Source: Hydra vulgaris (Eukaryota > Cnidaria > Hydrozoa > Anthoathecata > Hydridae). From it: 64,000 bases of DNA. Below the pieces are notes generated by a model. It ran no database searches. It worked only from the letters and a program-made list of their open reading frames with translations, and was not told the origin of the DNA. Each line of letters starts with the position of its first letter. The stretch's first letter is position 1. The position numbers and the translations under genes are program-made. Shown piece by piece: positions 43,264 to 49,641 of this stretch. The stretch is taken from assembly GCF_038396675.1 (NCBI RefSeq), contig NC_088927.1, positions 34,165,001 to 34,229,000 of the forward strand, read 5' to 3'.

Positions 43264-45058
43264 CTACTGAAATAAGGTTTTATAGAAACAAACATCTACA
43301 GCTGGCATGTATGGGTACATAGAAACAATGTCTTTTACTTTCTCACTAGAAATTTCAATATTATGTGGAAAACAAGATGCCAATGGAATTGATGGTTCTT
43401 CAAGATTACTTCCTGATCCTCTAGTGTTTTTTGGCTTAGACAGCCGTGCCTCTTTATAAATATCTGTAAAACGATTCTTGAAATACACATTACCAGGAGC
43501 ATTAGACCTATATACAAGTGTTTTGACATTAAAGTATGGAACCTTTTTGTAGTTCATAAGACAAGCAATTTTTGAGAATTTTTTAATGTCCTTTTTTCGC
43601 ATTTGGTATACAAAAAATGGTTTACGTTGGTTAACATTTAACATTGCTTTTACCAACTCGGGAGGGCTGAATATTTCTGCTGAATGTAATGATTTCTCAA
43701 TCTGACTATGTATATTATCCCATTCCTGAATGGAGCTATGTCCTGGCTCACAATACTTTTGTTCAATGATTTCAATATTTGGATGATCAATAAGAAACTC
43801 ACGCAATGCAGCTGACATATGACTGTTTCTATTTTGTGGAACACAAGAATCAAACCAAAGTAAAAACTTGTCAATATTAGGAAGATCCTTGTAAACTTGA
43901 TTTAGCATACATATCACAGCACTAGCAATATCGTTACCAGAACGACCAGACATACCTTCATGCCATAATACACAATATGCTTTTTTGTTTAGCGAAGAGT
44001 AACCTGTTAAATTATAACAACTGAGCTTTCTTTTATAAAAGAAGTTTCCCACGTTACTTTTTGGCAAGCTCAAGACATTTTGTAGATCAATACAAACTAT
44101 GGTTGTGGTAGGGGAGTTCAACTTTCGATCCTTATCTCTCTCGATCTGTGTTTCATTTTTTGATGCAATATGCTTGTTATACTTTTGGATTTGCTCTTCA
44201 TTTGCATTTTCAAGAATGCAAAATTGGTAGCATGTATCACACAGATCTTTTTTTGGCTTTTGAAATTCAATATTAAATTTGGTGTTAAAAACATTGCGGT
44301 ACATTCATTCCTTTGCTGGTAAAATTTTATATTGAGTGTTAAATATAAATCATAAAGTTTCTTCAAATTTAATGAACCATTAAAGTATTGTTTGCAGGAA
44401 ACGCTTCGACAATAATGTGACTCAACTCGTGGAAACAAGTTAATATGGTTTTCTATACTCTGTTTAGTCATTTCAAGAACTTTTTTTTTACAATGTTTTC
44501 CCCATTTTGTAGGGGCAGGAATACCAGTTTCAAGCTTATTTTCATGATAGTATGATATTTGCCTGCTGCTGATGTCTAATGTAGACAAATAAAACACTTT
44601 ACATACACGATGTTTGACATTATCAACAAAGAAATTGTAAAAATAAGTATATTTTCTCCTTGATTTGCTTACTTTATTGGTCTGAGTTGTTTTTTTATCT
44701 TATCTTTCAGTAGTTTTACTAAAAAAGTGTTGCTTTTCAATCTGAGACATTCCCCACAGTCCATTAAATAATATTTTCCTCTCATCTTCTGAAATTTTCA
44801 CAGAACACTTAAACTTGCAACAATTTCCACAATCTTCTTTATTTTTAATACTTTTTGGTTGTATAACCTTGCCTCTGATATTTATATATTCTTTTCCTGA
44901 TTGCCTAAGTCGTTTTTTTTTCGACTGTTTCCATTTATAACAGTTTGCCTTACGTTTTCTTGTTTTCCCACCGTGCGGAGGTAATCGCAGTTGACCAGCA
45001 ATTGAAGGATGTGTTGGAACATAGGGAGTAACCATGATATTAGCTTGTTGTGGGTAAA
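43264..45058 (-). pseudogene. DDE-like (RNase-H-fold) gene, last exon, with one stop and one frameshift
   Basis: Starts at an acceptor (AG at 45060-45059) and in phase reads VYPQQANIMVTPYVPTHPSI, a Lys-rich part (KTRKRKANCYKWKQSKKKRL), then CGNCCKFKCS. After an in-frame TAA (44702-44700) comes CKVFYLSTLDIS ... VESHYCRSVSCKQYF. A one-base shift at about 44305 opens the 346-residue frame: DLCDTCYQFC, TTIVCIDLQNVLSL (D73), KFLLWFDSCVPQNRN (D152), EPGHSSIQEWDNIHSQIEKS (D196 and E203). These spaced acidic residues after beta-strand-like segments suggest a DDE/RNase-H fold. The Cys/His clusters look zinc-binding. Proteins of this layout are widespread, unnamed and probably transposon-derived. Stop codon at 43266-43264. 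Confidence 0.65.
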
Positions 45059-45199
45059 CTAAAAATAAAAATTAAACATAAAAAAATTATGCAATGCAAA
45101 TAGGTGAAAATAAGATCATTTTTTTCCACATATGAAGCGATTCATTTAAATTTGAATCCTTATTTATTTAGTATATACAACAAATAGAGTGCTCAATAT

Positions 45200-45284
45200 A
45201 TATATGTATATATATATATATATATATATATATATATATATATATATATATATATATATATATATATATATATATATATATATG
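45200..45284. repeat. (TA)n microsatellite
   Basis: Alternating TA with gtatg ends. The flank caaatagagtgctcaatata is the inverse of sequence at 52754-52775 (ttgagcactctatttg), again a repeat that accompanies TA arrays. Confidence 0.95.
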
Positions 45285-46765
45285 TATGTATAGGTACGTG
45301 AGTAAAAAATTTCAAATTGTTTGAATACTATAATGTTATATATCATTAGATAGAGGATTATTACAGTATTTTAAAGGTGAAAAAATTATCAAAATCGAAC
45401 AATTGGTTTAAAAGTTATGACGGTTTAAGTAGCGATTTTTTCTATATATGGATTTGTTGAAGAAACTGTGGTCAAAATAATGTTTTTCTTCACTTAAATT
45501 GTCATAACTTTGCCAATTCTTATCGAAATACAAATATCTTGGTGTAAAAAGATAGGTGTAAGAGTGGGTTACAACTTTATGTTAAACTCTAACCACCGGG
45601 TGTATCGGATGGACAGAGGGGGCACCAAACCACCACCTCGCCCGTATAAAACTGGACACTTTTTTCAGAAATTTTTTTTTTTTTTAAATTACATAAGCAA
45701 TATAAATACACAAAAAAGTTATTTTAAATTTATAGTAAACCACCAAAATATACGAGAGGTGAATGTTAGCAATAGAGGTGGGTGTGGTGGCGATTGGTGT
45801 ATCACACCCTAGGATCAAAAACGACTTGATTTTATAAATATTTATATCTTTACTATAATGAGTAAAATTAGTACACAATATAAAGTTATGTTATACAATC
45901 TTACGTATAAAAGTGGTGTTTCTATTACAAAGGGGCGTATGCCCACCACCTGCCTACCCCCCCCCCCCATTCTCCACCCAACCTAAAAAAAAAAAAAATT
46001 TTTTTCAAAATTTGAACAACAAATTTAAAAAAAAAATTAAAAAATTGGAAATAAATTAAAAAATAAACTCATACCAGACAACCACCAAATATGGGAGGTT
46101 AATGTAAAACTCACAGTAGATATGTTGATGATGTTTTAGTACTATAATATCAAAAAATGTTTCAATTCTTGAAATATCTGATTGAATATTTAAAGTACAA
46201 CAACAAAGAAGTAAAAAACATATTCCACTAGATTAAAAGATACATTAGTGGTGCATCCATGGTCATAAGAGAGTGGAGTTTAAAAGAGGGCGTATCCAAA
46301 TATGTCATAAGAAAGAGGCATTCTAATGCCCTTTCCACTTCTTACCAAAAATTATTATTTAATTGGATATATATTACAAAAAAAATTATACAACTACTAA
46401 TGTGGGGCTATAAGTCAATTGGCTGTAAAAAACATGTCATCTTTCTAACCAAGTATAGCAAAAACCTATAATAAAGTCTTTCATGTGATTATTACATTAA
46501 CAGAAGTAAGGACCATACAGTATAGTTAACGAGCTAGCCATTTTGTTTGGTTAACAAACAAATTTTCTGTTTCAAAATAAAAAATAAATAAAATATTAAA
46601 AAATAATAATAATATAAAACTGTTTTAAAGAAAATACAATATATTTTTGTCTTGGCTTTTAGTGAATGATTAAAATAATTAATTCCAAAAATGAAACTGT
46701 TTTAACCATTTTTAACGATAGACACCACGTGAAGGTAGGCCAGAGCCGTCTATCAAAAAATTTAA

Positions 46766-47125
46766 CAAGTCACAACACTTGCTGTATTATTTAGGCAAGT
46801 CACAACACTTGCTGTATTATTTAAGCAAGTCACAACACTTGCTATATAATTTATGCAAGTCAGAACACTTGCTGTATTATTTAGCCAAGTCACAACACTT
46901 GCTATATAACTTAGGCAAGTCACAACACTTGCTATATTATTTTGACAAGTCACAACACTTGCTATATAATTTATGCAAGTCACAACAGTTGCTGTATTAT
47001 TTAGGCAAGTCACAACACTTGCTGTATTATTTAGGCAAGTCACAACACTTGCTATATAATTTATACAAGTCACAACACTTGCTGTATTATTTATGCAAGT
47101 CACAACATTTGCAATACATTTTTGG
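46766..47125. repeat. 30-bp tandem array of short palindromes, 12 copies
   Basis: Unit caagtcacaacacttgctgt + attatttagg, exactly 30 bp, repeated 12 times. Each unit has a small hairpin gcaagt-cacaac-acttgc formed with the last base of the previous unit. As 30 is divisible by 3, both strands stay open (KSQHLLYYLG and VVTCLNNTAS repeats). It lies inside the presumed intron, 29 bp from the donor site. Confidence 0.97.
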
Positions 47126-47153
47126 TTATTAAATTAATTAAATTGTAACTCAC

Positions 47154-48188: not shown

Positions 48189-49122
48189 CTAAAACAGCGA
48201 AAGAAATATTTAAGTTATACATAAAGGTTTAGATAGTGGCCAAATAATAATTTAAAATTAATTTAATAAATTTATATAAAAATAACTTATTTATTAGTTA
48301 TAAATTATAATCTAAAGGCTTTCCTTGTTAAATAAAGACAACGTTCAAACTTCAAATTAGATATGATTCATAACTTATTTGATTCATATATAAACTATAT
48401 TATGAATATGATACAAAATACTATGTGAAACCTTTATTTTCTTTCTCCATTTTGTTTCTAAATAAAATATAAAATTTAAGTCTTATTTTATTATTTACTA
48501 AAAATCCTTTTAATAAAACAATTTTGTTTAAATTTACATATTTTTAAATCATATTTTCACTATAAAGTATCTAGGTTTATAATATCAATTTATGAAATAA
48601 GTTAAATATTGCTAATAATATTATTAATATGAATGTTATATATAAAAAAAATATTTATATACAAATAATCAATGGACCCCTCTGTCTCCCGCGCTAACAA
48701 CAGGGAAAATGTAAATTAGGTAACAAAAGTGCAGCAAGAAATAGGGTGACTGCTACATAGTATTTTTCAACGAAATTTGGCAGGTGCATAGATAATTGAA
48801 TAACCTAAAAATAAAAATTGAATAGATAAAATATAGACTATATCCTGGACATTAATTTCACCACAGAAGTACAACTAAAACTTTGACATCAATAAACTCG
48901 GTAATATATCAATTGAGTATAATTAAAACCAAATTAATAATAAGCTTCAACTATTCTTCTTTCTAAAAATACTCTATGTTGATAACGAATACTAAAAAGT
49001 TATTTCAGAAAGCCTTCCTCAAGCACGCTAACTTTGAAGAGACTGCGAAAATCGTGGCACAAAATTTTAGCACAAAATTCGGTTCCGTAAAACGCAATTG
49101 TCACGTACCTAGTATGTATGTA
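48189..49122. other. Presumed first intron, AT-rich
   Basis: No repeat or gene recognised. The plus-strand frame that starts at 48976 ([20 protein letters not shown]) is unassigned and runs into the TA array. Confidence 0.45.
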
Positions 49123-49410
49123 GATATATATATATATATATATATATATATATATATATATATATATATATATATTATATATATATATATATATATATAT
49201 ATATATATATATGTATATATGTATACATGTATATATGTATATATGTATATATATATATATATATATATATATATATATATATATATATATATATATGTAT
49301 ATATGTATACATGTATAAATGTATATATGTATATATATATATATATATATATATATATATATATATATATATATATATATATATATATATATATATATAT
49401 ATATATATAT
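49123..49410. repeat. Interrupted (TA)n array, about 290 bp
   Basis: Three TA blocks separated by two related gtatatatgtatacatgtat interruptions, which suggests internal duplication of a TA-plus-interruption unit. Confidence 0.95.
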
Positions 49411-49411
49411 T

Positions 49412-49499
49412 ATTAGAACCTCACGGATTCTATTATATATGTTACATACACACATTAGTGTATGTGTCACATATACAACAGCATCCGTGACGTTCTAAT
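49412..49499. mobile_element. 88-bp hairpin MITE
   Basis: Arms attagaacctcacggat (49412) and atccgtgacgttctaat (49499), plus an inner stem tatatgttacatacacac / tatgtgtcacatata. It sits directly at the end of the TA array, consistent with TA-targeted insertion. Confidence 0.8.
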
Positions 49500-49592
49500 A
49501 AGATAATAACACATTTCCTACTAAAATAATTTGCTGAATTTTTATTAATAACTAAAAAAAGCCGATTAGCACTAGAATATATAAGAAAATAC

Positions 49593-49641
49593 CTGTATTT
49601 TGGTTTATTACTCCAAGACATACATTTATATTTTCCGCCAT
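49593..49641 (-). pseudogene. DDE-like gene, candidate first coding exon
   Basis: The ATG at 49641-49639 opens MAENINVCLGVINQNT and ends at a donor G|GTATTT (49593/49592). The phase (one base of the next codon) fits exon 2. No acceptor is needed. Evidence is the ATG context, the donor and frame continuity; the gene could also start at exon 2. Confidence 0.4.

Follow-up and report, generated by a model that had tools for sequence, protein, structure and literature searches.

A stretch of 64,000 nucleotides of the Hydra vulgaris genome (assembly GCF_038396675.1, contig NC_088927.1, positions 34,165,001 to 34,229,000 of the forward strand), called the window here, was analyzed. The window is AT-rich and includes long TA arrays. 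On its minus strand, the initial annotation had proposed a single gene of four exons that joined a Tudor/chromo-like barrel domain to a DDE-like core. The locus consists, with high probability, of two nested cut-and-paste DNA transposons, element A and element B, with B located within the intron of A and the barrel domain belonging to B, and what had been reported there is mostly ordinary. What stands of the initial description is a transposon, DDE-like, intron-bearing and decaying; the four exons and the barrel domain attached to it were not upheld.

Ends, copies and gene of element A

The features of A, in window coordinates, are the following.

42588-49917, minus strand (that of the gene): element A, a DNA transposon of 7330 bp including B, with a pair of terminal inverted repeats (TIRs), target duplications and at least 49 genome match rows for its long exon
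42588-42610, no strand: TIR of A on the side where the gene has its 3′ end, with the letters CGTCAGGTTAGAATTATTTTGTT
49895-49917, no strand: TIR of A on the side where the gene has its 5′ end, partner of 42588-42610
42584-42587, no strand: left target duplication, ATAT, 4 bp
49918-49921, no strand: right target duplication, ATAT, 4 bp
49593-49641, minus strand: exon 1 of A, 49 nucleotides (nt) with the ATG, ending in phase 1 at AG/GT; the layout recurs in L043 and L045
43264-45058, minus strand: long exon of A (exon 4 of the initial annotation), 1795 nt, with one stop and one frameshift in the window
43267-44304, minus strand: frame of the DDE/D-like core (P0001), with the acids D73, D152 and D196/E203

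The initial annotation had proposed to look for paralogues, and beyond the coding region for TIRs and target duplications, and all of these were found. A search of the genome (911.5 Mb, 15 contigs) with the long exon of A, in which 40 of the 196 candidates were scored, produced at least 49 match rows; apart from the window, the best of them reached 98%. Twenty stretches, cited by L numbers, were fetched; 19 contain a copy of A, while the remaining one, L010, is an adjacent piece that lacks it. When the region was searched against the window, a 38-bp inverted pair was found at 42580-42617 and 49888-49925, and the ends of A across copies are CGTCAGGTTAGAATTATTTTGTT. The search for ends, in which up to 4 substitutions were allowed, located both of them in 12 copies, the window counted, and the TIRs are at least 23 bp long at both sides in these 12. 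Because the window flanks of A are ATATATAT at left and right alike, the 4-bp length of the target duplication was taken from the other copies. Identical 4-bp duplications were found in 11 of the 12 copies (ATAT in four, ATTT in three, AAAT in two, AATT and AAGT in one each), and they are of the form AWWT in 10 of those 11. The sides are unequal in L018 (AAAT versus ATAT). A second end pairing in L027, which includes an outlying repeat, was excluded from this count. The length is between 3221 and 3754 bp in ten copies, 5075 bp in L026 and 7330 bp in the window copy.

Two further observations concern the ends. The flanks of the L026 copy (222-5296) are near-inverted copies of each other, with gaatattagcaaaa.gttacATAT at each side, as would be expected had A inserted into the centre of a palindrome. 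Variants of TTATTTTGTTCTATCTCC are repeated within the ends of A (42600-42862 and 49720-49917) and in the 5′ ends of L043 and L045, and may be binding sites of the enzyme.

The intron-bearing, DDE-like transposon gene of the initial annotation was confirmed for its first and last exons. Exon 1 is alignable in 15 of the 19 other copies of A; the AG/GT donor is kept in all 15 and the ATG in 13, with L020 and L025 having lost it. The acceptor AG of the long exon is kept in 17 of the 19 copies, was lost in L022 and is replaced by a different sequence in L021. L043 and L045, relatives of A that are 61% and 54% identical to it in the core, have the same layout: a short exon with the ATG (55 and 52 nt, respectively, counted by eye), a phase-1 donor, an intron, and a long exon that is entered in the same phase. 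The intron of L045 holds a TA array, and the 5′ ends of both relatives carry the same type of terminal repeat as A. These comparisons predict a gene of two exons, 49641-49593 and 45058-43264, which would be joined by splicing in the cell.

The acidic residues D73, D152, D196 and E203 are located as the initial annotation claimed and are kept in 17, 19, 18 and 19 of the 19 copies of A, respectively. The proportions of nonsynonymous and synonymous differences in the core among the window, L043 and L045 (pN 0.24-0.30 versus pS 0.78-0.82, the latter saturated) indicate purifying selection on the protein of the A relatives. The core forms one stop-free alignment in 2 of the 19 copies. The two stops and two frameshifts that had been taken as decay of one gene do exist, but they are split, with one of each in the long exon of A and one of each in the supposed exon 3, which is part of B.

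For the claimed RNase-H-like core, the acids are conserved and the fold is weakly supported by a single-sequence model with a mean pLDDT (predicted local distance difference test) of 37. In this model D73 closes a strand, D152 comes right after one, D196 and E203 are in a late helix, and the order of strands and helices is that of the RNase H fold. Among Pfam families the core scored best with DUF7869 (E 1.4e-4), at 22 bits against a cut-off of 26, over residues 124-243, which span D152 and D196. The frames of L043, L015 and L009 showed no DUF7869 match at E 0.1. DUF7869 is common in the genome, with at least 150 matches, all over the cut-off (150 of 865 candidates scored), and the window copy of A is not among the 150 listed; the name was not found in the literature searched. 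A sequence search of the PDB returned nothing for P0001 and eight chance-level rows for P0002 (best E 0.89), and in viral contigs no relative was confirmed with P0001 (7 stretches) or with alignment A1 (229 stretches).

The initial annotation had also raised former domestication. That a host gene derived from a transposase lies here is hardly credible: purifying selection on the core, seen when subfamilies are compared, is found in transposons as well, and such a gene would be single-copy and lack TIRs, whereas this locus has TIRs, target duplications, at least 49 genome match rows and broken frames. Domestication was rejected for what is a multi-copy repeat with TIRs.

Element B and its protein tail

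The features in the middle of the locus are the following.

45293-49109, minus strand: element B, a nested, internally deleted copy with the TIRs GGTACGTGA and TCACGTACC and TA on both sides
47134-47654, minus strand: C-terminal coding tail of the B protein (exon 3 of the initial annotation, with the barrel), with one frameshift, one stop, and its own stop codon at 47134-47136
48150-48188, minus strand: exon 2 of the initial annotation, inside B and not supported as an exon
49113-49410, no strand: TA array in the intron of A on one side of B; that on the other side is at 45196-45292

All four stretches that the initial annotation had joined (49, 39, 503 and 1795 nt) are present with AG/GT-like borders, but the second and third are inside B. 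For B, seven loci were cut out, of which L034 and L035 are the window itself. In L036-L040 the first bases of B follow TA, and the flanks differ from those of the window in three of them and are TA arrays in two (L036 and L038). More distant relatives of B, L030 and L031, carry the end variant TCCACGTACC before TA. Genome searches with B produced at least 40 match rows (827 candidates) and at least 41 match rows (617 candidates), and B therefore belongs to a large family.

The relatives of B also have the protein whose tail had been read as exon 3. The open frames of L029, L030, L031 and L032 (585, 574, 574 and 465 amino acids, cut short where the fetched stretches end) cross the supposed acceptor uninterrupted and stop after GELMFS, GELIFS, GELIFS and GELQFN, respectively. 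The donor assigned to exon 3 is 17 bases ahead of the stop codon of B, where the protein of the relatives ends. A whole frame, of 949 amino acids, was found in L041 (609-3455, plus strand). The best 41 match rows, the window's included, start at query base 1 in 24 cases, at base 47 in 15 and at base 32 in one, and there is one scrap of 35 bases. Query base 47 corresponds to window position 47654, and the supposed acceptor, 47656, is two bases off. The matches that start at 47654 therefore identify this acceptor as a deletion junction common to a set of deleted copies of B.

The label Tudor/chromo for the barrel was not borne out. In Pfam, Tudor_5 (E 0.0039) scored 17.4 bits against a cut-off of 31. 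A single-sequence model of the stretch (pLDDT 67) has the order strand-helix-strand-strand-helix, and a fold search with it produced no match at E 0.001 or better; the 50 matches listed include KH and Pcc1 domains and no Tudor or chromo title. The 949-amino-acid protein matched nothing in Pfam with an E-value below 0.029 and had a single chance-level row in the PDB (P0005, E 0.32).

The opposite reading of the locus is that of one four-exon gene with barrel and DDE core, whose middle exons were lost from the other copies by deletion between TA arrays. In its favour, AG/GT borders allow the stretches to be joined, and exons 1 and 4 are real. Against it, the middle part has its own TIRs and TA and occurs elsewhere with other flanks, the supposed exon 3 runs in relatives to a stop codon of its own, and a deletion junction accounts for the acceptor of that exon. 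Paralogues, the comparison on which the initial annotation had staked its exon structure, also disagree with it: only two exons are present in L043 and L045, and the barrel stretch (47154-47656) was matched in none of the 19 copies of A, nor was the word at the 5′ end of B. An origin of the short A copies by deletion between TA arrays was rejected on the same grounds, the TIRs of the middle part and its presence elsewhere with other flanks. We consider a four-exon gene very improbable. A false fusion of a barrel with a DDE core is removed in this way, and a gene predictor could make the same error.

Repeats were also seen next to the frames of B. A 30-bp minisatellite of 11.6 copies (46766-47112) follows the stop of the B frame in the window, and tandem repeats with other units, seen as repetitive frames, are found right after the frame in L029, L030, L031 and L032. 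Just past the end of the B copy in L033 there is a frame with a THAP domain (70-1014, minus strand; Pfam E 1.5e-10), which is probably part of yet another transposon.

The TA array in the intron of A

In L011, L013, L014, L015 and L023, only a TA-rich array of 85-311 bp, free of inserts, lies between the two sides of the intron; the corresponding part of the window measures 4.2 kb. A search of the 19 copies of A with the whole of B showed no match at all in nine. Other material is located at the array in L019 (1731 bp), L026 (705 bp) and L028 (1472 bp), among others. The array in the intron thus holds inserts that differ from copy to copy, as if it attracted insertions, and illustrates a TA array in a transposon intron taking up further inserts.

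In the proposed reading, A carries, between its TIRs, a predicted two-exon transposase gene made of a short exon with the ATG and a long exon with the DDE/D-like core. The enzyme, most likely Sola2-like, would bind the TIRs, excise A and join it to an AWWT target; 4 bp of AT-rich target are duplicated. In a later step, B would have inserted into the TA array of the intron, duplicating TA. B is an internally deleted copy and retains the C-terminal end of a protein that is its own and unrelated; this end was read as the barrel exon. The coding parts of both elements are broken in the window.

Several observations weigh against the nested arrangement or parts of it. The far end of B was found in the same form in one other copy only, L033, which is the same insertion as L037. 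Ten of the 19 copies of A carry, next to TA arrays, a short sequence resembling positions 47833-48115 of B (77-84%; in L020 the match, of 100%, is to TA array), and L016 also matches the first 174 bases of B (74% over 179 columns). Concerning the core, position 196 is N in L043 and position 203 is D in L045, and the third acid is a candidate, D196 or E203; the fold search with the core model (pLDDT 37) gave no match at E 0.001 or better. The B-like matches in 10 of the 19 copies were therefore taken to mean that the array of A attracts other B-like or B-borne pieces.

Classification of the two elements

Sola transposases are DDD enzymes; their first description reportedly came in 2009 from Bao and colleagues. 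A is likely best filed as Sola2-like, by its target duplication and not by transposase sequence. Sola2 elements of amoebozoa have AT-rich 4-bp duplications of the form AWWT (ATAT, AAAT, ATTT) and short TIRs (PMC3627910), and A agrees with them in both features. A Sola2 transposase in the same paper has 888 amino acids (PMC3627910), whereas the long exon of A has about 590 codons. A recent paper on the Hydra vulgaris AEP genome (PMC12220107) attributes 596 Mb, or 65.3% of about 913 Mb, to transposons and names Sola-2 among the elements contributing most to the growth of the genome. Filing A under piggyBac or Kolobok was rejected: TTAA, the target duplication of both (for Kolobok, PMC9587614), was not found, the duplications of A being ATAT, ATTT, AAAT, AATT and AAGT.

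DUF7869 as the top-scoring Pfam family for the core (E 1.4e-4; residues 124-243, with D152 and D196) would favour placing A outside Sola2, in another lineage of DDE/D transposons, perhaps unnamed and related to DUF7869. We consider such a lineage unlikely, although it deserves more weight than a domesticated or a four-exon gene. The match is below the cut-off, 22 versus 26 bits, it has no counterpart at E 0.1 in the frames of L043, L015 and L009, the window copy is absent from the 150 genome matches listed, and the target duplications of A are those published for Sola2. Under the Sola2-like assignment, what is described here is an intron-bearing family that has conserved its phase-1 intron and shows defined ends, target duplications and a weak link to DUF7869.

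TA flanking short TIRs is a feature that B shares with Tc1/mariner and other TA-duplicating elements. Tc1/mariner transposases are far shorter than 949 amino acids, in contrast to the protein of the B relatives, which also lacks a Pfam match below E 0.029. The lineage of B, with its 949-amino-acid protein, TA duplication and TIR GGTACGTGA, may be worth classifying as a transposon lineage. A more speculative proposal, which we make tentatively, is that A and its relatives bridge Sola2-type elements and DUF7869, the latter being the DDE/D catalytic core of an animal lineage, and that B represents a separate superfamily not yet named.

Other mobile elements may be found on both sides of A. Two long frames beside it (50879-52270, plus strand) look like a hAT-type transposase, which we assume them to be, and the frame to its left (42070-42414, plus strand) is presumably part of the endonuclease of a long interspersed nuclear element (LINE).

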